Source of the DNA: Desulfobacca acetoxidans DSM 11109
Lineage (GTDB): Bacteria > Desulfobacterota > Desulfobaccia > Desulfobaccales > Desulfobaccaceae
Direction: 5' to 3'
Assembly (NCBI RefSeq): GCF_000195295.1
Contig: NC_015388.1
Location: 620,001 to 684,000, forward strand
DNA length: 64,000 nucleotides
Shown here: positions 17,394 to 26,676 of the stretch, piece by piece
Numbering within the stretch: the stretch's first letter is position 1
How the letters are laid out: every line of letters begins with the position of its first letter
The notes under the pieces: generated by a model
Database searches by the model: none
Seen by the model: only the letters and a program-made list of their open reading frames with translations
Told to the model about the DNA's origin: nothing
Made by a program: the position numbers and the translations under genes

Positions 17394-17834
17394 CTATTTG
17401 AGCAGTTTGAGCAGGGTGACGACGAAGGCGGCCTGGCCCAGGATCAGTGGGATAAACCATTTAAGCAGGTCGAATTTAACCCGGTCGATTTTGGCTTCCA
17501 GGGCGGTAAACTTGATCTCATGACGGGCTTCCAAGGCTTTCATCTCGGCTCTGAGGAAGGCAATATCCTCTTTCAATTCGGCTCTGAGGGAGACAATATC
17601 CTCTTTCAATTCAGCTCTGAGGGAGGCGATGTCCTCTTTCATCTCGGCTCTGAGGGAGCCGATATCCTCTTTCAGTTCAGTTTTCAAGGCGCCAATGTCG
17701 GCTTTGCCAGCCACCTCGGCGAGGCGGGTTTCTTGAAGCTCCTGGACGATGGTAACCAAGGCCCGGGCTTGGCGGTCGGGCATGTCGGCCGCGGTGAGGG
17801 CTTCGTAGGCCTTAAGGGTGTCGACAGTGGGCAT
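17394..17834 (-). CDS. DUF1640-like coiled-coil membrane-anchored protein
   Basis: A 146-residue protein with an N-terminal helical region (VDTLKAYEAL), a long charged coiled coil and a C-terminal hydrophobic anchor (about 126-145, FIPLILGQAAFVVTLLKLL). The layout is like DUF1640/CCDC90-type proteins. The coil contains four near-perfect 11-residue units (LKEDIxSLRAE), a hendecad repeat. The matching DNA is a 33-base tandem repeat (17547-17678), so copy number may vary. Function is unknown. It is followed upstream by a smaller coil-plus-anchor gene on the same strand. Confidence 0.7.
   Translation of the reverse strand: MPTVDTLKAYEALTAADMPDRQARALVTIVQELQETRLAEVAGKADIGALKTELKEDIGSLRAEMKEDIASLRAELKEDIVSLRAELKEDIAFLRAEMKALEARHEIKFTALEAKIDRVKFDLLKWFIPLILGQAAFVVTLLKLLK
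17547..17678. repeat. 33-bp tandem repeat inside coiled-coil gene
   Basis: Four units starting near 17547, 17580, 17613 and 17646, each containing GCTCTGAGG and ATxTCCTCTTTCA. Units differ at a few bases. They encode the 11-residue coil units of the DUF1640-like protein. Confidence 0.85.
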
Positions 17835-18088: not shown

Positions 18089-18146
18089 TTGGTGCCTGGG
18101 GCCGGATTTGAACCGGCACGGGGATGAACCCCGAGGGATTTTAAGT
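18089..18146. repeat. attL: displaced tRNA-Leu 3' end
   Basis: 58 bases identical to 26588-26645, corresponding to the 3' half of tRNA-Leu(UAA) from CCA back through the variable arm to the anticodon-stem side. The sequence then diverges (GTGTCAA instead of GTCCCTTG), so no tRNA can be made from this copy. Confidence 0.93.
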
Positions 18147-18265
18147 GTCAATTTTACCTTTTACCCTGAGTAAGCGCAAGTGATATTTACTTAGCAGTAT
18201 TAATATGATAGGTTTTATTAAATTGTGCCTGAGTAAGCCTGAAATAGCCTGTTTTGTGGGGTGAA

Positions 18266-18285
18266 TATTCACCTATATATTCACC
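18266..18285. promoter_or_regulatory. Candidate integrase arm-type site, left end
   Basis: TATTCACCTATATATTCACC, a doublet of TATTCACC spaced 12 bases. The identical 20-mer lies at 26511-26530 beside the right end, and a looser doublet is at 23910-23929. Identical doublets near both ends fit arm sites bound by integrase or excisionase. Two copies of CCTGAGTAAGC also flank this area (about 18165 and 18227). The rest of 18147-18420 has no supported gene. Confidence 0.6.
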
Positions 18286-18420
18286 AAAATAATAAGCGAA
18301 TGTCCATAACATTATCTAAGATTTTGCTCCCCTAACCGCGGCGTCATGAACCGGGGGACAGGGTGACTTCCTTATCACCTTGGGGGGCTATTCATAAAGG
18401 ACCACTAAAGGAGGTGGAAC

Positions 18421-19290
18421 TTGGAAGAAGATGCAAAAGCCCTGGCGCGATGCAAGGCAAAGAAAAAAATTTTACCCCAAAAAACCCCAAAAAGGGGCAT
18501 GAAAAAACACCAGGAAGAGGCCCACAAGGATTTAGTACGGCGAAACCTTTATAGATGGGAGGCCCTAAGAAGATCGGAAGCATACCGGGGGGCGTATCAG
18601 GCAGCTTTTGAAGCTATGGAGGCCAGACTCAAAAGGGAAATGGTTTTCTCTTCTGATGATTATGATGGGGAAACCGACCGGAATAACATCTATGCCATGA
18701 TCCTCGACCCATCATGGCGAGACCGAAAATTTCATGAGCAATGGACTCCGGAAAGGTTAGAAGGTGAATTTATAACTTCCCCTGAAGGGCGGTCCCTGGC
18801 GGTGAAGTGCGGCTTAGTGATGCCTTTCCCCCCTCATAATCCCCCATGGGTTAGTAAATTCGCTAAAGATCAACCTATTTTTTATGATACCTTCCCCGTT
18901 ATTGCTACCAGTATCGAACAACCGCGGGTTGACCCCAAAACCAATAGCATGATATGGCCTTCTTCTCACTTAGAGAATAAGAGATATTTAAATCTCAAGA
19001 TTGATCTGACCTGCCCAAAAGAGCAGGTAATGGTTTTTGTTGAAAGATGGGTTAACAAATATCGCCATGAGGTAAGTGGGGATTCCAAAGGCAAAAGGGC
19101 AATTGCTCATGATGATGAAATTAATCCTTTTCTTGTCTGGGATATGGTTCAAAACGAGCACAAAACAAAATGGCAGGTGGCAAAAGAATTAATTCCACAA
19201 CAGGAAATAAGATCAGCTTATGACAAAATAAGGCAGCTTTATAAGAAAGCACAGAAATTAATAGGAGAACAAGGAAAGTTGCTACAATAA
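18421..19290 (+). CDS. Unknown protein of the mobile element
   Basis: A 289-residue protein that I do not recognise. It begins at TTG with AAAGGAGGTGG just upstream, which makes this start convincing. The N-terminus is very lysine-rich (CKAKKKILPQKTPKRGMKKH), followed by LYRWEALRRSEAYRGAYQAA, which faintly resembles the N-terminal segment of small regulators on integrated elements of other proteobacteria. The C-terminal half has mixed strand and helix character (LNLKIDLTCPKEQVM) and ends in a helical segment with IRSAYDKIRQLYKKAQKL, possibly a helix-turn-helix. It is the first gene after the left end, a common place for a regulator. Confidence 0.75.
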   Translation: MEEDAKALARCKAKKKILPQKTPKRGMKKHQEEAHKDLVRRNLYRWEALRRSEAYRGAYQAAFEAMEARLKREMVFSSDDYDGETDRNNIYAMILDPSWRDRKFHEQWTPERLEGEFITSPEGRSLAVKCGLVMPFPPHNPPWVSKFAKDQPIFYDTFPVIATSIEQPRVDPKTNSMIWPSSHLENKRYLNLKIDLTCPKEQVMVFVERWVNKYRHEVSGDSKGKRAIAHDDEINPFLVWDMVQNEHKTKWQVAKELIPQQEIRSAYDKIRQLYKKAQKLIGEQGKLLQ

Positions 19291-19296
19291 TCTGCT

Positions 19297-19350
19297 GTAC
19301 TGAAATATAATCTCCCCCTCATTTTACAGTACTGAAATATAAACCTCCCC
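19297..19350. promoter_or_regulatory. Direct repeat pair upstream of excisionase gene
   Basis: GTACTGAAATATAATCTCCC (19297) and GTACTGAAATATAAACCTCC (19329) are near-identical blocks 32 bases apart, about three helical turns. They lie between the first gene and the excisionase gene. A regulator-binding pair is likely. Confidence 0.55.
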
Positions 19351-19379
19351 TCTTTCTTCAGTTTTTCCCTTGCGCCTTA

Positions 19380-19416
19380 TTGCTTACCATAAAGAAAAAA
19401 CAGATGAGGTAAGCAA
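19380..19416 (+). promoter_or_regulatory. Inverted repeat covering the excisionase ribosome site
   Basis: TTGCTTACC (19380-19388) and GGTAAGCAA (19408-19416) are exact complements. The right arm holds the GAGG-type ribosome site and ends immediately before the ATG. As DNA it could be an operator; as RNA it would hide the start. Confidence 0.6.
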
Positions 19417-19614
19417 ATGGAGCATCTTTTAAACAATCAACAAGCGGCTGAATTTTTAAACATTTCCCCTCATTCTTTGCGTGGGTATGTATCCCGCGGT
19501 ATGGTGCCATACGTGAAGATCGGGCGGCGGACCCTGTTTGACTTGGCAGATTTGCGCGATTATGTGCAGTCCCGGAAGGTGGCGGCCAAACCCCGGCGGG
19601 AAGCTGGCAAATGA
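19417..19614 (+). CDS. Excisionase / AlpA-like helix-turn-helix protein
   Basis: A 65-residue MerR-like winged-helix protein of the excisionase DNA-binding family: LLNNQQAAEFLNISPHSLRGYV (helix-turn-helix), RGMVPYVKIGRRTLFDLADLRDYV. Such proteins direct excision of integrated elements or switch their lysis-lysogeny type control; AlpA plays this role in P4-like satellites. The stop overlaps the next small gene (ATGA). An inverted repeat overlies its ribosome site, suggesting autoregulation. Confidence 0.85.
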   Translation: MEHLLNNQQAAEFLNISPHSLRGYVSRGMVPYVKIGRRTLFDLADLRDYVQSRKVAAKPRREAGK

Positions 19615-19760
19615 CCGCGGCGGAAATTGCTAAGAACCTTCATTATGTTCTGCGGCTTGCCCTGTTATCCTATTTGATTGACTTCTCTTATTTCGACCGT
19701 GGGCTGTCCTTGGCAATCGACCGGCTAATCGTGACCCTGGAAGAGGGCGGCAATGGCTGA
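19611..19760 (+). CDS. Small 49-residue coupled protein
   Basis: A short frame starting at an ATG that overlaps the excisionase stop (ATGA) and ending inside the start of the RepA-like gene (ATGGCTGA). The peptide begins MTAAEIAKNLHYVLRLALL, probably helical. Tight coupling on both sides suggests that it is translated. I recognise no family. Confidence 0.5.
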   Translation: MTAAEIAKNLHYVLRLALLSYLIDFSYFDRGLSLAIDRLIVTLEEGGNG

Positions 19761-20751
19761 CAAAATTATCAATATCGCTGATGAGGCCAGGCAAAGAATA
19801 AAGGCCGAGAAATTACAGAATGAGCACGGGATTAAAACTATCACCGGGGCCGACCTGGCCGGCAAAGTGTTCCCACCAATACGGTGGGCCGTCCCTGGAC
19901 TACTGCCGGAAGGATACGGGATACTCGGGGGCCGTCCAAAGATCGGGAAGTCATGGCTTGCTTTTGACATTGCCTTGGCGGTTGCCAGCGGCGGCTATGC
20001 TATCGGCAGTAACGAATATCCGGTTGACCCGGGAACGGCTCTTTATCTTGCCTTGGAAGATCACGAGCGCCGACTTCAAGAGCGCCAAGCGGTTTTACTC
20101 AATGGGCAGGCCGGGGGGCCGGAACGGTTGCACCTTACAACGGAATGGAAGCGGTTGCACGAGGGCGGCATAGAGGCCCTGGAAGCATATCTCACAGCTT
20201 ACAACGACTGCCGACTTGTCACAGTGGATACCTTGGCAAGAGTGAAACCCAGGCTTAAACGTGGGGCCGATGCCTATGAAAATGATATGGAGATCGGCGG
20301 GAAATTACAGGCCATTGCCCACAAATATCATGTATGCCTCTTGGCCGTCCACCATACCAGGAAAAGCAAGTCTGAAACCGGGGATTTTATAGACGAACTG
20401 GCAGGAAGCACCGGGATAACCGGAGCACCGGACTTTGTTGCACAGCTTTCTAGGGGGCGGCGGGAAAATACCGGGATACTCGAAATTACCGGGAAGGATA
20501 TTCCAGAGATCGAGCTTGCACTTAAATTTGAAAACTGCCTTTGGACATATTTAGGCAATGCTAAGGAAGTAAGAATTAGTCAAAACCAGGAAACTATTTT
20601 AAATTGCTTGAAAAATTCGAGCGAACCATTGAAACCGAAAGAAATTTCTCAAATGACAGACATAGGCGAAAACTACGTGAAAAACATTCTAAAAATACTG
20701 TTAGATACTGAATTAATTAAGAAAACAGGATACGGAAAATACTGTATATAA
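19753..20751 (+). CDS. RepA-like AAA ATPase / helicase
   Basis: A 332-residue RecA-fold ATPase of the plasmid RepA (AAA_25) type, probably the replicative helicase or its loader. Walker A is GGRPKIGKSW near residue 57, LYLALEDHERRLQER follows, Walker B is RLVTVDTLARV, and VHHTRKSKSETGDF plus the ELAGSTGITGAPD loop match RepA-like proteins. The C-terminal 70 residues (LKNSSEPLKPKEISQMTDIG) form a likely winged helix. It lies directly before the 9-bp repeat array and the primase gene, forming a replication block. Confidence 0.88.
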   Translation: MADKIINIADEARQRIKAEKLQNEHGIKTITGADLAGKVFPPIRWAVPGLLPEGYGILGGRPKIGKSWLAFDIALAVASGGYAIGSNEYPVDPGTALYLALEDHERRLQERQAVLLNGQAGGPERLHLTTEWKRLHEGGIEALEAYLTAYNDCRLVTVDTLARVKPRLKRGADAYENDMEIGGKLQAIAHKYHVCLLAVHHTRKSKSETGDFIDELAGSTGITGAPDFVAQLSRGRRENTGILEITGKDIPEIELALKFENCLWTYLGNAKEVRISQNQETILNCLKNSSEPLKPKEISQMTDIGENYVKNILKILLDTELIKKTGYGKYCI

Positions 20752-20763
20752 ATATAATAAATA

Positions 20764-20943
20764 TATTACTCTTATTACTCTTATTACTATTATGTCTCTT
20801 GTGTTTCTTGTGTCTCTTGGCTTAAAGAGTCACAAAGAGTCACATTCTATATTCTATCAAATGTGTCTCTTGGGATTTTTTATATTGTTGAATTTATTAG
20901 AGATACAAGACAAGAGTCACAGAGTCACAAGAGTAATAAGAGT
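20764..20943. other. Candidate replication origin: 9-bp repeat arrays
   Basis: An AT-rich spacer between the RepA-like and primase genes. Six 9-base units run without gaps at 20764-20817 (TATTACTCT twice, then TATTACTAT, TATGTCTCT, TGTGTTTCT and TGTGTCTCT). Inverted units AGAGTCACA lie at 20826-20834 and 20836-20844, TGTGTCTCT recurs near 20862, and a second inverted array, AGAGTCAC-AGAGTCACA-AGAGTAATA, runs at 20913-20938. The centre (20865-20900) is very A+T-rich. Opposed iterons around an AT-rich core, placed in a replication block, fit an origin. Confidence 0.65.
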
Positions 20944-20952
20944 TTATAGAAA

Positions 20953-22017
20953 ATGAATTTACTTTCTCTTTGTCAGGCAGATACAGAACTGAAAAAGGTG
21001 GCGACCACCAAGGGCGTCGAATATGCCGGGGCATGTCCGTGGTGCGGCGGGAATGACAGGTTTAGGGTATGGCCGGAAACCGGGCGGTATTGGTGCCGGG
21101 GCTGTGGCAAAAAAGGGGACGTTATTCAATATCTCAGGGATAAGCGGGGGCTGTCATTTCCGGATGCCTGCCGAGTAGCTGGCCGGGAAGATAAGTTGAA
21201 CGGCGGGAGAGCTGGGGGCCGGGGGCCGTCCACCGGGGCGAGATCGGCGGCGAGGCCCACAGAGGGGCCGGGGCCGTGGAAACCTAAGACCTCTTCTTTG
21301 CCGGGTGAACAATGGCAGGAGCAGGCCGGGAAACTGGTAGAGTATGCGGCGGGCAAGCTGAACAGCGATACATGGGCATATCTAAACGGGCGGGGGCTGG
21401 CCGATGATACCATACAGGCCCGGCGGTTGGGGCTGTTACCGGCTGAGAAATACGTCAAGCGGGGGCCGTGGGGGTTGCCGAAACAGCTAACCCAGCATGA
21501 CAGAGAAAAAGATCTCTGGCTTCCTGCCGGGGTAGTCATTCCCTATTTCATCGGCGGCAAGGTGGCCCGGGTACGGATACGGCGGCAAGAGGCCGTGGAA
21601 GATCGGTATTGGAATGTGTCAGGTTCTTACATGGGGCCGATGGTATTAGGGCCGGAAGGGGATGTTATCATAGTGGTGGAAAGCGAACTTGATGGCTTTC
21701 TTCTTGCCCAGGACTGCGGCGACATGGCCGGGGTAGTTGCTCTTGGCAATGCTCAGAGTAAACCGGACACCGGGTCGGCGGCTATTCTGGCAAAAAGCAA
21801 GTTGATACTTGTGGCCCTGGACGCTGACCAGGCCGGGGCCGTGGCAAGCTGGCAGTGGTGGCTAAAGACCTTCACCCAGGCCCGGCGGTGGCCGCCTGTG
21901 GGCGGTAAAGACCCCGGCGAAATGTGGCAGGCATGGGTTGACCTCAAGGCATGGGTAGGGGCAGGCATTGACGAATATAAAACTATAAACCGTATTATAT
22001 CGAATAGTTATAAATAA
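20953..22017 (+). CDS. Toprim primase
   Basis: A 354-residue DNA primase of the plasmid/phage type. The N-terminal zinc finger is C28-x2-C31 and C48-x2-C51 (CPWCGGNDRF, YWCRGCGKKGD). A linker rich in glycine and proline follows, then a partial catalytic region (LNGRGL) and a Toprim domain with VVESELDGFLLA (acidic residue) and VALDADQAG. No helicase domain is fused, in keeping with a separate RepA-like ATPase next door. It begins 9 bases after the repeat array. Confidence 0.87.
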   Translation: MNLLSLCQADTELKKVATTKGVEYAGACPWCGGNDRFRVWPETGRYWCRGCGKKGDVIQYLRDKRGLSFPDACRVAGREDKLNGGRAGGRGPSTGARSAARPTEGPGPWKPKTSSLPGEQWQEQAGKLVEYAAGKLNSDTWAYLNGRGLADDTIQARRLGLLPAEKYVKRGPWGLPKQLTQHDREKDLWLPAGVVIPYFIGGKVARVRIRRQEAVEDRYWNVSGSYMGPMVLGPEGDVIIVVESELDGFLLAQDCGDMAGVVALGNAQSKPDTGSAAILAKSKLILVALDADQAGAVASWQWWLKTFTQARRWPPVGGKDPGEMWQAWVDLKAWVGAGIDEYKTINRIISNSYK

Positions 22018-22029
22018 GCAGGAGGTGGT

Positions 22030-22509
22030 ATGAAACCATTAGATTTAGAGCCAATTAAAGAACGCGTGGCTAAAGCTACACCGGGGCCATGGGCGTGGCG
22101 TGAGAATGATTTCAGGCCGAAATATATGGAAAAGATGCGTAACGGGAAATGGCGAGCAAGGCCGGGGGCAAAGGCAGACCAGGCATGGGTGATGCTGTTG
22201 GCCGGGCCACCGAGCAAACATGCTGCTGAACTAACCCCGTTTAATATTTTATGTGGGGATGTAGATGAATATGATTTTCCCCATATCATTGGGTTGAGGT
22301 GGGCGCAGGTTAAGGGAAAGGCTCTATTGGGCGTGGTGCCATTACCTGCTGATGCCGAGCTTATTGCCAACGCTCCTACTGATATCAAGGCTTTAATTGA
22401 AGAGGTTGAACGGCTTAGAGACTTGCTCAAGCAGCGGTCAGACGTGAGCCATGACGGCGACGATAGTGACGGTAGTGACGATAAATTTTCATCTCAGAAA
22501 AAAAGCTGA
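22030..22509 (+). CDS. Phage-type small protein with ATPGPW motif
   Basis: A 159-residue protein. It has an ATPGPW motif near residue 20 and, towards the end, the block DAELIANAPTDIKALIEEVERLR. That pair of motifs is common in small phage and plasmid proteins of unknown role (ead/Ea22-like context). The tail is aspartate/serine-rich (DGDDSDGSDD). AGGAGG precedes the ATG, 12 bases after the primase stop. Confidence 0.7.
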   Translation: MKPLDLEPIKERVAKATPGPWAWRENDFRPKYMEKMRNGKWRARPGAKADQAWVMLLAGPPSKHAAELTPFNILCGDVDEYDFPHIIGLRWAQVKGKALLGVVPLPADAELIANAPTDIKALIEEVERLRDLLKQRSDVSHDGDDSDGSDDKFSSQKKS

Positions 22510-22545
22510 CGGAAAAAAAAACACACTTTCTGACGGGGGTGATCT

Positions 22546-22854
22546 ATGAAACCCGGTGCAGCAATCATGAAGCTTACGGCAATGGGTTTTCGCTTCAAGA
22601 TGAATGGTGACAAGATTCGCTATGACTGGTGCGGCAAGGGCAAACCGGACATGGAAGCGGTGGCGCCATTATTTGAAGCCATCAAGGCCGAGCGGGACGC
22701 CGCCATTCTGTTTTTGCGGGTGTACTGCCCAAGATGCGGCGGCTGCGTGTTCTACTCCGACCACACTGGCGAGCAGCACTGCGCCAAGTGCGAACCGCCG
22801 GACTGGAATTGCATTGAGAAGCTATTCCCGTATACGGCAGGCGTGTGTCATTAA
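22546..22854 (+). CDS. Small zinc-ribbon protein, unknown
   Basis: 102 residues. The N-terminal half (LTAMGFRFKMNGDKIRYDW) looks like a small nucleic-acid-related module also found at the start of some phage proteins. The C-terminal half has a zinc ribbon, YCPRCGGCVFY and HCAKCEPP. No function is recognised. It lies in the same direction as its neighbours, with no overlap. Confidence 0.6.
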   Translation: MKPGAAIMKLTAMGFRFKMNGDKIRYDWCGKGKPDMEAVAPLFEAIKAERDAAILFLRVYCPRCGGCVFYSDHTGEQHCAKCEPPDWNCIEKLFPYTAGVCH

Positions 22855-22930
22855 AAAAACGAATACTAACCCATGGGTTGCCACATAAACTTGCCGTGTG
22901 GGGCATCCTGGCGATCCAGAAAGAGGGAAA

Positions 22931-23218
22931 ATGACTTTCGAAATGGTCTTGAAGCAGATGCAGGCGGTTCACGAAGCCAAGAACGCCGACTATGGCAATT
23001 CTTTTGAACTGGCGGCAGACCTCTTAGGGCGGCCCGTGGTGGAAGTGTTGCTCAGCAGGATGATCGACAAGGTAAGCCGGGCTGCTAACCTGGTGCGCAG
23101 CGGACAGGCGGCGGTGGCCGATGAGAGTCTTGCTGACACTCTTCTTGATCTGGCAAATTACTCAGTGCTGGCGATGCTGGCTCTGCGAGATCGGGGTGCG
23201 GTTGAATATTCTCGTTGA
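22931..23218 (+). CDS. DUF1599 (nucleotide-modification-associated) protein
   Basis: 95 residues. The block MQAVHEAKNADYGNSFE matches the DUF1599 family, which Pfam links to nucleotide modification in phages; the evidence for that role is comparative. GAGGGAAA lies before the ATG at 22931, a better start than an in-frame upstream codon at 22898. Its end overlaps the start of the ERCC4 gene. Confidence 0.72.
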   Translation: MTFEMVLKQMQAVHEAKNADYGNSFELAADLLGRPVVEVLLSRMIDKVSRAANLVRSGQAAVADESLADTLLDLANYSVLAMLALRDRGAVEYSR

Positions 23219-23687
23219 CACCAGGGAACAGGTGCCTTTCTCTTTTGGCGGCTATGACGTGGCTGTGGAACCGGCGGCCCTGCCAGTGGGGGATTACTCT
23301 TTGCCCGGTTTTGTGGACCGTGTGGCTATTGAACGTAAGGAGTTAAACGACCTGATTGCCTGTTTGATGGATAAAAACCGGGACCGGTTTGAAAGGGAAC
23401 TCGCGAAAGGAAAAAGCTATGAGCTTTTTGCCGTGGTAGTGGAAGCGGCCCTTGAGGACGTGAGGCGGGGGGACTATCGCAGTGCCATGAAACCCCACGC
23501 AGCCCTACAGAGCCTGTGTGCTTTTCAAGTGCGCTACCGGGTGCCGTTCGTATGGGCGGGGGACCGGCAGGGGGCTGAGTATATGACCTTTTCCCTCTTG
23601 GCGAAATATCTGAGGGAAATTGAGGAACGCTATAAACAGGCCGTGAAAGGCGGGAATTATGGAAAAACCCTTGGTAACAGTGAATAA
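23196..23687 (+). CDS. ERCC4-type nuclease domain protein
   Basis: About 163 residues forming a lone ERCC4 (XPF-like) nuclease. The catalytic pattern is visible: ILVDTREQVPF, VGDYSLPG, and VAIERKELNDL with DRFERELA, corresponding to the GDxnERKxxxD core. XPF nucleases cut branched DNA; stand-alone versions are common in phages and could process replication or recombination intermediates. The start is probably GTG 23196 (or TTG 23202), since the longer frame reads through DUF1599 coding sequence. Confidence 0.85.
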   Translation: MRLNILVDTREQVPFSFGGYDVAVEPAALPVGDYSLPGFVDRVAIERKELNDLIACLMDKNRDRFERELAKGKSYELFAVVVEAALEDVRRGDYRSAMKPHAALQSLCAFQVRYRVPFVWAGDRQGAEYMTFSLLAKYLREIEERYKQAVKGGNYGKTLGNSE

Positions 23688-23898
23688 GAACACAAAAGAA
23701 CGATACCATTTTAGCATCAGGGAGTATCAAGGCCACAAGTTCGTTGACGTGCGGCTGCACTTCCTGGCCGATGATGAGCAGAGTTGGCACCCCACAAAAA
23801 AGGGGATTACTGTATTACCTTCTCTTTGGCGTGATTTCAGGGCGGCCCTAGACCAGGTCGAGGCTGAACTCGTTAGGAGGAAGTTGATTGAGCGGTGA
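23659..23898 (+). CDS. PC4/YdbC-like ssDNA-binding protein
   Basis: 79 residues with the PC4 coactivator pattern: YHFSIREYQGHKFVDVRLHF, then PTKKGITVLPSLWRDF and a terminal helix. The PC4 fold binds single-stranded DNA; in phages such proteins can act as SSB-like or transcription factors. Its ATG lies inside the 3' end of the ERCC4 gene, so the two are translationally linked and probably act on the same DNA. Confidence 0.83.
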   Translation: MEKPLVTVNKNTKERYHFSIREYQGHKFVDVRLHFLADDEQSWHPTKKGITVLPSLWRDFRAALDQVEAELVRRKLIER

Positions 23899-23909
23899 AA
23901 AAAATCGGA

Positions 23910-23929
23910 TATTCACCCCTGTATTCACT
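23910..23929. promoter_or_regulatory. Internal TATTCACC doublet
   Basis: TATTCACCCCTGTATTCACT, a looser version of the terminal doublets at 18266 and 26511 with the same 12-base spacing. The surrounding 23899-24096 holds no gene that I can support. Confidence 0.4.
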
Positions 23930-24096
23930 GGGATGACAGCGGCCAAAATAAGTGATTTGAATCGGTTAGTTGCAGCGATGGCCGTCGCATTACATATGCG
24001 AGGTAGAGGCCGTTGCGTAGGTGAAAATTATAAGAATATCTATTGATATCACGAAGATAGGCGATATTAGTACGCAAAGAAGCTGGAGGTGATGAT

Positions 24097-24327
24097 ATGC
24101 GAATCCAAAGACGACTTGAGCGATTGGAGAAATTACTCTCCGGCAACCAGATTACTGTAGAGGGGGAGGAGGCGATCGCCGAGGCGTTTAGAATTTTCGG
24201 GAAGCGCGTGGACGGCGCAGAAGTTTCGGCTGAGGAGTTGGATTTCGAAAGGCAGGTATACGGAACGCCGGTTTTGGTCACTCACATGACTCATCTCTTG
24301 TTGGAAGCAAGACTGAGATTGGACTGA
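24097..24327 (+). CDS. Small unknown protein
   Basis: 76 residues. GGAGGTGAT before the ATG is a strong ribosome site. The peptide begins MRIQRRLERLEKLL, a helical start common among small phage proteins, and is rich in glutamate. No family is recognised. Confidence 0.6.
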   Translation: MRIQRRLERLEKLLSGNQITVEGEEAIAEAFRIFGKRVDGAEVSAEELDFERQVYGTPVLVTHMTHLLLEARLRLD

Positions 24328-24417
24328 ATTGGCCGGAAATAGGCGGCTAACACTCCTTTTTGGCGTGCTAAATGCAGCTATTATGATAATATGCTAATAA
24401 AATCAAGGGGGTATATT

Positions 24418-24648
24418 ATGCCAAGAAGACGCCTAAATACATCACAGGATTGTCGGCGGTATCTGGCGAACGTCATCAACCGTTTGGAAGCCGGGACGCT
24501 TGATCCGAACATAGCTGGACGTTTGGCGTATATCACAAACATCATTATCCGGGCAATCGAAACCAGTGAGCTTGAGACCAGGCTAAATGCCTTAGAGGAG
24601 CGATTTAGTGAAAATCCCAAAAGCAGACTACTACGCCTGGCTCGTTGA
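24418..24648 (+). CDS. Small unknown helical protein
   Basis: 76 residues from the ATG at 24418, which has AAGGGGG upstream; the longer frame from 24391 has no ribosome site. The middle, LANVINRLEAGTLDPNIAGRLAYIT with SELETRLNALEERF, is a pattern seen in small helical phage proteins. Function unknown. Confidence 0.58.
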   Translation: MPRRRLNTSQDCRRYLANVINRLEAGTLDPNIAGRLAYITNIIIRAIETSELETRLNALEERFSENPKSRLLRLAR

Positions 24649-24778
24649 TAACAGCGGGTTATTGAAGTATATAACCTTCTCTATCCATGATGTAGTGCAG
24701 GAGGTTGCGCAGGAGTTTGAGCGGCAGGGGGAAACATGGGTGGAAAGCGGAATTGTGGGGATTAAGGTGAGGGTGTAG
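24608..24778 (+). CDS. Possible 56-residue protein
   Basis: A GTG-started frame overlapping the previous gene by 41 bases. The peptide begins MKIPKADYYAWLVDNSGLL and has balanced composition. No family is known and the ribosome site is weak (GAGGAGCGATTTA is somewhat far), so this is tentative. Confidence 0.35.
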   Translation: MKIPKADYYAWLVDNSGLLKYITFSIHDVVQEVAQEFERQGETWVESGIVGIKVRV

Positions 24779-24951
24779 TGTACTTAAAAAACAAAGAACT
24801 GCTTCAGGATCGGAGCGCACCCGATACGACTTCTTCCGGCGAAAAGCCCCCCTTCGCTCGCTCTCCTGAAAATGCTACCGGTCAGGGAGCGCCCGACGCT
24901 CAAGGCCGAAGCAAACTTGATGATCAAAATATACCCACTCCCGGCGAATAA
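24778..24951 (+). CDS. Possible 57-residue proline/serine-rich protein
   Basis: A frame that starts GTG directly on the stop of the previous one (TAGTG). The peptide is polar and likely disordered (TTSSGEKPPFARSPENATG). Evidence is limited to position and spacing. Confidence 0.3.
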   Translation: MYLKNKELLQDRSAPDTTSSGEKPPFARSPENATGQGAPDAQGRSKLDDQNIPTPGE

Positions 24952-24971
24952 ATCAACATGGATACTTTTTC

Positions 24972-25000
24972 TTGACAGGCCGGGGGAAGTGTGCTCTAAT
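24972..25000 (+). promoter_or_regulatory. Strong sigma-70-type promoter
   Basis: TTGACA (24972-24977), a 17-base spacer, and TCTAAT (24995-25000). It is one of the cleanest consensus matches in the window. It points towards a terminator and then the 25155 and integrase genes. Confidence 0.65.
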
Positions 25001-25028
25001 CCTAATGTCAAAACACCACTACCGGAGA

Positions 25029-25053
25029 CCTCACCGTTATGAGGATTTTTTTT
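25029..25053 (+). terminator. Terminator close behind the promoter
   Basis: CCTCA-CCGTTA-TGAGG followed by A and eight T. It lies about 30-45 bases after the expected start site, so it could act as a leader terminator or end a very short RNA. Confidence 0.6.
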
Positions 25054-25069
25054 CCACCGAAAATAAAGT

Positions 25070-25138
25070 TGCCTGGCATCCCGACTCCGTAAGGACCGGG
25101 GGGAGTGTAGTGCTCCCTGACAATGCCAGGCATTTTTC
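25070..25138 (+). ncRNA. Structured leader candidate
   Basis: TGCCTGGCAT (25070-25079) pairs exactly with ATGCCAGGCA (25123-25132), followed by TTTTTC. Inside, GGGAG-TGTAGTG-CTCCC forms a second hairpin, and ACTCC can pair instead with GGAGT. The structure ends 16 bases before the start codon of the next gene. A structured attenuator or small RNA is possible. No known RNA family is recognised. Confidence 0.4.
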
Positions 25139-25154
25139 TTTTTGGAGGCAGGCA

Positions 25155-25418
25155 ATGGAAGAGGTAAAAGAATATTTATATCATGCCGAACGTATATTAT
25201 ATGGTTCGTATGGTGCAGGTGCGTTATGCCTTGCCGATGTGATTGAAATATTAATGCTGCTCCCTGAAGGTGAAAAACGTGAATTTGAAGTAGTTGTCAA
25301 ACGGTATCATAATACCGCATGTGCCATAAAATACAGACGAGAAAAAGAAAATCGGTTAGCGCTGAATCGGCGCAAACGAAAAAAGAAGTTGGTATTGATA
25401 AATGGGCGGTGCAAATAA
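25155..25418 (+). CDS. Small unknown protein before the integrase
   Basis: 87 residues from the ATG at 25155, with GGAGG 8 bases upstream; the longer frame from 24972 would run through the promoter and terminator and is rejected. The peptide begins MEEVKEYLYHAERILYG and ends very basic (RREKENRLALNRRKRKKKL), which suggests nucleic-acid binding. The stop overlaps the integrase start (TAATG). Confidence 0.6.
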   Translation: MEEVKEYLYHAERILYGSYGAGALCLADVIEILMLLPEGEKREFEVVVKRYHNTACAIKYRREKENRLALNRRKRKKKLVLINGRCK

Positions 25419-26506
25419 TGGCCTTGTTAATCGAATGTCCACAATGTAAGCGGCGTAACCCCGCAAAAGAGAAAGCCTGTAAGGGTTGTGGTTTCCTCTT
25501 GGCGAAGCACAGCGGGCGGATTTGGTGGATTGAGTATTACGATCATGAGCGACGGCTGCGGCGGGAGCGGATCGGCCCCAACAAGGCGGCGGCGGAGCAG
25601 CGGTATCGGGAAGTGAGGAGCTTACTGGCTGAGGGGAGGTTTGTCAGGAAATGCCCTGATGCGAAGACCACATTCAAAACCCTGGCTGACTGGTATTTAA
25701 ACCTCCCGGAAGTTAAGGCCAAGCGGAGTTATAGCCGGGATGAAAGGAGCTTGAAAAAACTTCTCCCGGTTTTTGGCGACAAACTCTTGAAGGATATAAC
25801 CCCGGCAATGGTCGAGAAATACCGGCAGGATAGGTTATCCGAACTATCTTACCGGGGAAACCCCACAAAACCGGCCACCGTAAACCGGGAAATGGCATTA
25901 CTGAAAATTATCTTCAACAAGGCTATAGCCAACGAAAAAGCCGAAAAAACTCCCGTTAAAGGCTTGAAGATGCTCAAAGAAAATAATGCCAGGGACCGGG
26001 TTTTATCGGAAGCGGAGTATTTAAATTTAATAAATCAATGCCCTGGATACCTCAGGCCGATTGTCAAGGTTGCCTATCATACCGGCATGAGACAGGGGGA
26101 AATTCTTTCTTTGACGTGGGGACAGATAGATTTGAAGGAGGGATTTATCACCTTGCGGCCCGAAGATACCAAAACTAACGAAGCCCGGCTAATTCCCCTC
26201 AATTCAGAACTTATGGATTTATTTAAGGGCATACCCAGGGGGTTGCCACAGTTGAGGGTCTTCCTGAAAAACGGGAACCCCATAACGTCAATTCGTGAAA
26301 GCTTTCAATCGGCTTGTCGAAAAGCAAACATTACCGACTTTACTTTCCACGATCTCCGGCATACTTTCACGACTAACATGAGGCGGGCGGGTATTCATGA
26401 TTCTGTGATTATGGCAATTACCGGCCACAAGACCACGGCCATGTTTTTGAGATATAACACCGTGGGCAGGGATGAACTCAGGGCCCTGGTGAGGGAGAAA
26501 ATTTGA
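25418..26506 (+). CDS. int: Tyrosine integrase with N-terminal zinc ribbon
   Basis: A 362-residue site-specific recombinase. An unusual N-terminal zinc ribbon (C7-x2-C10, C21-x2-C24) precedes an arm-binding region (IWWIEYYDHERRLRRERIG), a core-binding SAM-like domain (about 90-190) and the catalytic domain with arginine in TGMRQGEI, HDLRH and the tyrosine in MFLRYNTVG. It should recombine the 58-bp att repeats. The ATG at 25418 overlaps the stop of the previous gene; an upstream in-frame start lies inside that gene. The gene ends 81 bases from attR. Confidence 0.94.
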   Translation: MALLIECPQCKRRNPAKEKACKGCGFLLAKHSGRIWWIEYYDHERRLRRERIGPNKAAAEQRYREVRSLLAEGRFVRKCPDAKTTFKTLADWYLNLPEVKAKRSYSRDERSLKKLLPVFGDKLLKDITPAMVEKYRQDRLSELSYRGNPTKPATVNREMALLKIIFNKAIANEKAEKTPVKGLKMLKENNARDRVLSEAEYLNLINQCPGYLRPIVKVAYHTGMRQGEILSLTWGQIDLKEGFITLRPEDTKTNEARLIPLNSELMDLFKGIPRGLPQLRVFLKNGNPITSIRESFQSACRKANITDFTFHDLRHTFTTNMRRAGIHDSVIMAITGHKTTAMFLRYNTVGRDELRALVREKI

Positions 26507-26510
26507 TTGG

Positions 26511-26530
26511 TATTCACCTATATATTCACC
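26511..26530. promoter_or_regulatory. Candidate integrase arm-type site, right end
   Basis: The same 20 bases, TATTCACCTATATATTCACC, as at 18266-18285, here four bases after the integrase stop and 58 bases from attR. Confidence 0.6.
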
Positions 26531-26546
26531 AAGGATTTGTCAGACA

Positions 26547-26580
26547 ATAAAAGAGGGGTTGGCGAAATTGCTAACCTCTT
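26547..26580 (-). terminator. Terminator behind tRNA-Leu
   Basis: Read on the minus strand: AAGAGGTT, a 12-base loop, then AACCCCTCTT with TTATT after it. It lies in the mobile element, 8 bases beyond the tRNA's CCA, so the element supplies the tRNA's terminator. Confidence 0.6.
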
Positions 26581-26587
26581 AATATTC

Positions 26588-26645
26588 TTGGTGCCTGGGG
26601 CCGGATTTGAACCGGCACGGGGATGAACCCCGAGGGATTTTAAGT
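26588..26645. repeat. attR: tRNA-Leu 3' half
   Basis: 58 bases identical to attL at 18089-18146. Here the sequence continues into the intact 5' half of tRNA-Leu, so this junction keeps the tRNA functional. Confidence 0.93.
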
Positions 26646-26676
26646 CCCTTGCGTCTACCCATTCCGCCACCCAGGC
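26589..26676 (-). tRNA. tRNA-Leu (UAA)
   Basis: 88 bases including an encoded CCA. The acceptor stem GCCTGGG/CCCAGGC, the anticodon loop CTTAAAA with anticodon TAA, a long variable arm (CGGGGTTCATCCCCG) and the T-loop GGTTCAAATCC identify a class II leucine tRNA. It is the integration target of the mobile element. Confidence 0.95.

Follow-up and report, generated by a model that had tools for sequence, protein, structure and literature searches.

A stretch of 64,000 nucleotides from Desulfobacca acetoxidans DSM 11109 (contig NC_015388.1, positions 620,001 to 684,000), referred to as the window, harbours at 18089-26645 an integrated element of 8,557 bp, counting both 58-bp cores, which is probably a phage satellite of Desulfobacterota akin to the phage-inducible chromosomal islands (PICI). 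This reading is best supported because the gene plan, the layout of the replication origin and the relatives of the element fit PICI-like satellites, and to that extent the original prediction of a satellite type in this phylum stands. In detail, it is supported by attachment (att) repeats in a tRNA gene, a unidirectional plan of integrase (Int), HTH_17 protein, Rep and primase and an iteron origin after repA. Further support comes from relatives with a fused primase-RepA, the relative L197 without structural genes, sister elements bearing the large terminase subunit (TerL) and capsid and the likeness of the small protein L to DUF5681 proteins. Phage satellites travel in particles of other viruses; those known stem mostly from a small number of well-studied groups, among them Enterobacterales, Bacillota and vibrios, and few phages of Desulfobacterota are known.

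Exact flanking repeats delimit the element as an insertion at the 3' end of tRNA-Leu(TAA), in a host genome of 3,282,536 bp on a single contig. The two 58-bp direct repeats (18089-18146 and 26588-26645) lie 8,499 bp apart between unrelated flanks, and an intact tRNA-Leu(TAA) called by ARAGORN on the minus strand (26589-26676) contains the right one as its 3' part, which bears out the earlier claim of 58-bp att repeats with one copy in an intact tRNA-Leu. The interior has 48.8% G+C compared with 53.5% across the window. In the congeners G001, G002 and G003, tRNA-Leu(TAA) adjoins the same oxidoreductase gene, with no integrase beyond it in the 365-1046 bp available; the site looks unoccupied there, judged by the intact tRNA and the same right-hand gene only, the left flank not being conserved. 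Just inside each end, an exact 22-bp repeat (18266-18287 and 26511-26532) holds two TATTCACC boxes, a motif present eight times in the window versus approximately 1.7 times expected, with six of the eight copies within the element. DNA resembling the left or right end, mostly round TATTCACC boxes, occurs in G002, G007, G008, G011, G013, G018, G023 and G026, where it is placed behind related integrases or ahead of genes similar to that for protein A, the first gene product of the element; the TATTCACC repeats are putative arm sites of the integrase. The features of the two ends are as follows.

18089-18146, no strand: attL, 58-bp copy of the 3' part of tRNA-Leu(TAA), exact direct repeat
18266-18287, plus strand: left arm-type site with two TATTCACC boxes, exact 22-bp repeat of 26511-26532, in left-end DNA kept in other elements
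26511-26532, plus strand: right arm-type site, exact 22-bp repeat of 18266-18287
26588-26645, no strand: attR, 58-bp repeat, exact direct repeat
26589-26676, minus strand: tRNA-Leu(TAA), intact integration target (ARAGORN), the same tRNA apparently unoccupied in three congeners

Between these ends the order is protein A (289 aa), HTH_17 protein, 49-aa open reading frame (ORF), RepA, origin, primase, 159-aa protein, 102-aa protein, DUF1599 protein, ERCC4-type nuclease, PC4-like protein, small ORFs and integrase.

18421-19290, plus strand: protein A, 289 aa, probable regulator, TTG start behind AAGGAGGTGG, with relatives in the same place in L097, L120, L121 and L197
19417-19614, plus strand: AlpA/Xis-like HTH_17 protein, 65 aa (PF12728, 44.3 bits; PHROG excisionase/regulator)
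19611-19760, plus strand: 49-aa ORF overlapping both neighbours by a few bases, ORF only, no family
19753-20751, plus strand: RepA-type helicase initiator with weak C-terminal winged helix (PF13481, AAA_25, 93.9 bits; RSF1010 RepA structure)
20752-20952, no strand: predicted replication origin, two opposed AAGAGWCACA iteron arrays round an AT-rich core (repeat counts versus shuffles)
20953-22017, plus strand: DNA primase with zinc ribbon and Toprim (PF01807, PF08273), catalytic residues kept
22030-22509, plus strand: phage-type protein, 159 aa, no assigned function (PHROG 722/1667, approximately 1e-6)
22546-22854, plus strand: protein G, 102 aa, zinc-ribbon protein common to sister elements
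22898-23218, plus strand: DUF1599 protein (nucleotide modification associated domain 1; PF07659, 46.2 bits)
23121-23687, plus strand: ERCC4-type nuclease, domain from about 23196 (PF02732, 58.2 bits; PHROG ERCC4-type nuclease)
23659-23898, plus strand: PC4-like single-stranded DNA-binding protein (PF02229, 48.6 bits)
24097-24327, plus strand: K, 76-aa ORF, no family, similar short ORFs adjoining L homologues (by eye)
24391-24648, plus strand: L, 85 aa, resembling the C-terminal half of DUF5681 proteins
24608-25418, plus strand: small ORFs M (56 aa) and N (up to 148 aa), ORFs only, weak gene evidence
25319-26506, plus strand: tyrosine integrase with N-terminal zinc ribbon (PF00589, Phage_integrase, 96.3 bits)

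All assigned genes are on the plus strand and thus have one transcription direction, and the Pfam matches agree with the integrase, excisionase-like regulator, RepA-like ATPase, primase, ERCC4, PC4-like and DUF1599 proteins named in the original prediction. The integrase comprises 395 aa when the longest ORF is taken. The primase scores 36.2 bits with Zn_ribbon_DnaG and 37.1 bits with Zn_Ribbon_Prim, and its zinc-ribbon cysteines and Toprim acidic residues are kept in an alignment of ten relatives; no tblastn match was obtained among INPHARED phages. The HTH_17 protein also matches a PHROG for the small terminase subunit (TerS; 6e-6), a match that covers only the common HTH and ranks after the better excisionase/regulator match. 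Protein A has no match in Pfam, PHROG or NCBIfam, and its AlphaFold model has a mean pLDDT of 59. It had been proposed, alongside small proteins, as a place to look for helper interference, a role that finds no support; a regulator is the better fit and the probable function, because its relatives lead other elements as well, at the same position ahead of the HTH_17 and replication genes. Parts of the M/N region resemble the DNA of a decayed relative near 943 kb in the same genome.

Among the ORFs of the element scanned with Pfam, PHROG and NCBIfam, none matched a family for TerL, capsid, portal, tail, relaxase or type IV secretion system, consistent with the earlier statement that terminase, capsid and relaxase are lacking. 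Capsid or terminase genes in the unassigned frames would have counted against a satellite; none was found in the element. The scanned ORFs show neither recognisable head, packaging and tail genes of a temperate prophage nor recognisable relaxase or conjugation genes of an integrative and conjugative element (ICE) or an integrative and mobilizable element (IME). Elements without a relaxase of their own exist, and several ORFs lack an assignment, both of which can be counted for a mobilizable island that borrows the relaxase of a conjugative element in trans. Such an island is very improbable, as no relaxase or mobilization family appears among the scanned ORFs, an origin of transfer not having been searched for, and the relatives carry packaging genes instead.

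The intergenic region between repA and the primase gene is the predicted replication origin. AAGAGTCACA occurs there in 11 copies with at most two mismatches in 175 bp, compared with at most two copies in the other 201-bp windows tested and at most five in 1,000 dinucleotide shuffles of the origin region; the copies are mostly on the minus strand to the left and on the plus strand to the right of a core of 26% G+C. Equally, most relatives examined have arrays of short repeats of different sequence right after rep: in L017, L023, L098 and L025 none of 500 shuffles attained the best 7-mer count, in L015 and L016 17 of 500 did, and in L085 and L086 the count was not significant (500 shuffles); arrays in L164, L160 and L157 were seen by eye. 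In PICIs, the origin directly follows the replication initiation gene on its 3' side, and an AT-rich region is always flanked by two iteron sets (PMC6092414), a layout that the element shares. RepA itself matches the RSF1010 RepA structure weakly in sequence (E 0.0088), and weak winged-helix matches from Pfam are located at its C-terminus.

An autonomous integrative plasmid would likewise possess a complete replicon comprising initiator, origin and primase of its own; such an element would excise, replicate in the form of a small cryptic plasmid and be spread by chance events, transformation or generalised transduction, with no specialised helper phage. Pointing in the same direction, RepA shares 37% identity with its counterpart on pATHE01, an 8.3-kb plasmid of Caldicellulosiruptor bescii, and no packaging gene was recognised in the element. 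However, TerL and capsid genes are present in sister elements, L is akin to a family of phage genes located near terminase, no partition or mobilization gene was recognised in the element and the strain has been reported with 0 extrachromosomal elements (PMC3156406), which together make a plasmid of this kind unlikely.

The element belongs to a family of small islands laid out like phage satellites, with members throughout the order and the phylum, several of them att-bounded at 5-13 kb in different tRNA genes; the satellite reading draws on this family. This family was reached via genome search, ERCC4 scans and DNA similarity; peptide-pattern scans gave no relatives of RepA among genome and viral contigs, nor of A and L among viral contigs. 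Integrases approximately 61-66% identical are encoded in G002, G007, G011, G013, G018, G023 and G026 and adjoin tRNA-Cys or tRNA-Arg wherever a tRNA was found. The closest complete relative, L197 from another genus (G018), spans 7.3 kb with a 45-bp att in tRNA-Cys and carries, in order, an A-like protein, HTH_17, Prim-Pol, a 555-aa protein without Pfam match, a G-like protein, a 175-aa protein, DUF5681, a K-like small ORF, HTH and Int, with no structural gene recognised. Equally free of structural genes is the plan of L164 from another family (Desulfobacteraceae bacterium CSMAG_2745), where a 45-bp att pair in tRNA-Leu(GAG) bounds approximately 9.6 kb; encoded there are a primase-RepA fusion, an HTH and an AlpA-like protein, ERCC4 and an Int of 39% identity. 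Primase and RepA are fused in L016 as well.

Other bounded relatives have packaging genes, whereby the label TerS-like denotes a position ahead of TerL or capsid and is supported by no family. L116 (G015, 8.6 kb) carries TerS-like and TerL genes; L098 (G016, 13.2 kb) a split TerS-like gene, PC4, ERCC4 (68%) and TerL; L016 (G019, 13.4 kb) primase-RepA, TerS-like, HK97 capsid, TerL and a type IV restriction enzyme. L139 (G042), 5 kb at tRNA-Leu(TAA), carries an L homologue. TerL passes Pfam in L098 (PF03237) and L025 (PF03354) and the HK97 capsid (PF05065) in L025, L085 and L016, and in the part of the ORFs of TerL- or capsid-bearing elements that was scanned no portal or tail gene was recognised. 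These TerL and capsid genes, together with the phage relatives of ERCC4, DUF1599, the 159-aa protein and L, could be taken to indicate an ordinary prophage that has lost its late genes. Such an origin is quite improbable, considering that the replication and integration module is intact with exact att repeats, that the plan without structural genes recurs in the bounded elements from another genus and another family and that the capsid-bearing sisters are themselves only approximately 13 kb. The relatives are bounded small elements rather than all remnants of one prophage, and on the best reading the element is not a lone prophage remnant.

ERCC4 has relatives of up to 71% identity in viral contigs, one of which, L133, has portal and capsid families. 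A TerL adjoining ERCC4 in L133 was not confirmed by Pfam, and proximity of the two is claimed for L098 only, where a single small gene separates ERCC4 from the TerL behind it. L matches the C-terminal half of proteins that have DUF5681 as their N-terminal half. A packaging role for L is no more than plausible, and is suggested by two phages in which such genes sit near terminase: a DUF5681-like gene lies two genes ahead of the large terminase in Kosakonia phage Kc259 and a DUF5681 gene approximately 1.6 kb ahead of a gene annotated as terminase in Pseudomonas phage PS24. The accessory gene set had been considered different from that of known satellites, which holds insofar as ERCC4, PC4 and an L/DUF5681-like gene recur in sister elements. 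Since ordinary phages also carry ERCC4 and DUF5681, these two look like packaging-neighbourhood genes rather than unique cargo. PC4 was dropped as a family marker, PC4-like genes being present in nearly all genomes of the order; in this host, the sole copy found is that of the element (23659-23898).

Several points weigh against a satellite. RepA has relatives on a plasmid as well, and the element yielded no recognised TerS, cos/pac site or gene for capsid remodelling. The host genome has no HK97-type capsid (PF05065) and no portal above the PF04860 cut-off, other capsid and portal families not having been searched, and offers only an orphan TerS-like/TerL pair. This pair, at G000:C1:1462048-1463974 (L154/L155), consists of a TerL-like gene (40 bits with PF03237) and an adjacent small HTH gene; the surrounding 40 kb (approximately 20 kb on each side) show no further phage genes. 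These tests reveal no helper in the genome. Satellites can sit in genomes without a mobilising helper (PMC11389934). That the element depends on a helper is inferred.

In the proposed life cycle, protein A and the HTH_17 protein would switch the island on upon phage entry, and Int together with the HTH_17 protein would act on the TATTCACC arm sites for an excision that leaves the tRNA intact. The winged helix of RepA would then bind the iterons, the helicase open the AT-rich core and the primase start replication, with ERCC4 and PC4 processing the multicopy DNA. A helper phage would package this DNA, with the DUF5681-like L as candidate for steering packaging, and Int would re-insert it in a new cell. 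A more tentative and rather doubtful extension is that Desulfobacterota possess a satellite lineage of their own, with packaging content ranging from none to TerS-like and TerL to TerS-like, capsid and TerL, in which a packaging-hijack module of ERCC4, PC4 and DUF5681 type replaces terS. Such graded packaging genes in a satellite family from sulfate reducers would offer a natural series in which to ask whether loss from phages or gain of hijacking functions gives rise to satellites, and would direct attention to phages of Desulfobacterota. No paper joining 'phage satellites' and 'Desulfobacterota' was found, which is weak evidence given that most subscription journals are outside the search and Deltaproteobacteria only partly covered. 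As D. acetoxidans ASRB2 is a described type strain, excision is directly testable if it is obtained from a culture collection.

Additional observations concern the surroundings and the relatives. To the left of the element, 33-bp tandem repeats (17504-17705) lie within a coiled-coil (CCDC90-like) gene, and a similar short gene is found in L187 near a remnant at tRNA-Arg(TCT). This remnant (approximately 943.3-944.4 kb of the host chromosome) is a decayed relative with fragments of the small-ORF region and an arm region; a second one (L188, approximately 1005.5-1005.8 kb) retains an integrase tail and arm region beside tRNA-Arg(ACG). L191 was considered as the attP junction of a circular form. 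This was rejected in favour of the left end of another integrated element, because the att fragment of L191 is similar to tRNA-Cys and the integrase tail to the left of that fragment is a remnant. None of the five window proteins examined with PADLOC was reported as a defence gene. In two genomes, RepA-type elements are followed downstream by the gene for a conserved protein of approximately 1,500 aa (L017:507-5054 and L100:11041-15564), which is likely defence cargo because the L017 copy matches the PADLOC models MkoA/MkoC. In G009, CRISPR-like repeats and type III-like effector genes were seen by eye (L024:6310-14346) on a contig that starts with the N-terminal part of RepA. On the 11-kb contig L086, RepA, primase, ERCC4 and PC4 occur together with a ParA-like protein, a pair resembling a toxin and antitoxin, a recombinase and a prohead protease (PF04586); inspection by eye revealed no capsid gene.

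Among known systems, Gram-negative PICIs (Fillol-Salom et al., 2018; PMC6092414) share with the element a size near 9.5 kb, site-specific integration by an own tyrosine integrase with att repeats, an AlpA-type regulator with a primase and Rep module (PF12728, PF13481, PF01807; the role of the HTH_17 protein being inferred), the origin plan and the one transcription direction of the Gram-negative type. The pri and rep genes of PICIs 'are sometimes fused' (PMC6092414), as they are in the relatives L016 and L164. The element differs from PICIs in its separate rep and primase genes with the origin between them, the lack of TerS, the ERCC4-PC4-L block, the integrase at the right end beside the tRNA and the Desulfobacterota host. 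Similarity to PICI genes is at the domain level, the element is set beside PICIs by description and ERCC4 and DUF5681-like genes occur also in phages. Capsid-forming PICIs (cf-PICI; PMC11389934, PMC10803314) resemble the sisters L016 and L025 in having HK97 capsid and TerL without recognised tail genes, whereas the window element has no capsid or packaging genes of its own and the sisters have no recognised portal or protease. With phage-inducible chromosomal minimalist islands (PICMI; PMC10803314), the element shares a minimal gene set without packaging genes and integrase, PF12728-type AlpA and primase, but it is larger, resides in tRNA-Leu instead of fis and has a CHC2/Toprim primase instead of the DUF3987/DUF5906 type. 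P4-like satellites (compared with PICIs in PMC6092414) equally combine tRNA integration and a replication module with the absence of structural genes, while no P4 alpha-type fused primase-helicase, Sid, Psu or Delta homologue was matched in the element. The likeness to pATHE01 (NC_012036) is confined to the RepA-like ATPase (37% identity over 82% of the query), that plasmid being free, without an integrase in its gene table and different in its other genes. The layout is that of a known kind, the PICI-like satellites, from which the element differs in its split rep-origin-primase order, its ERCC4-PC4-L block and its phylum.

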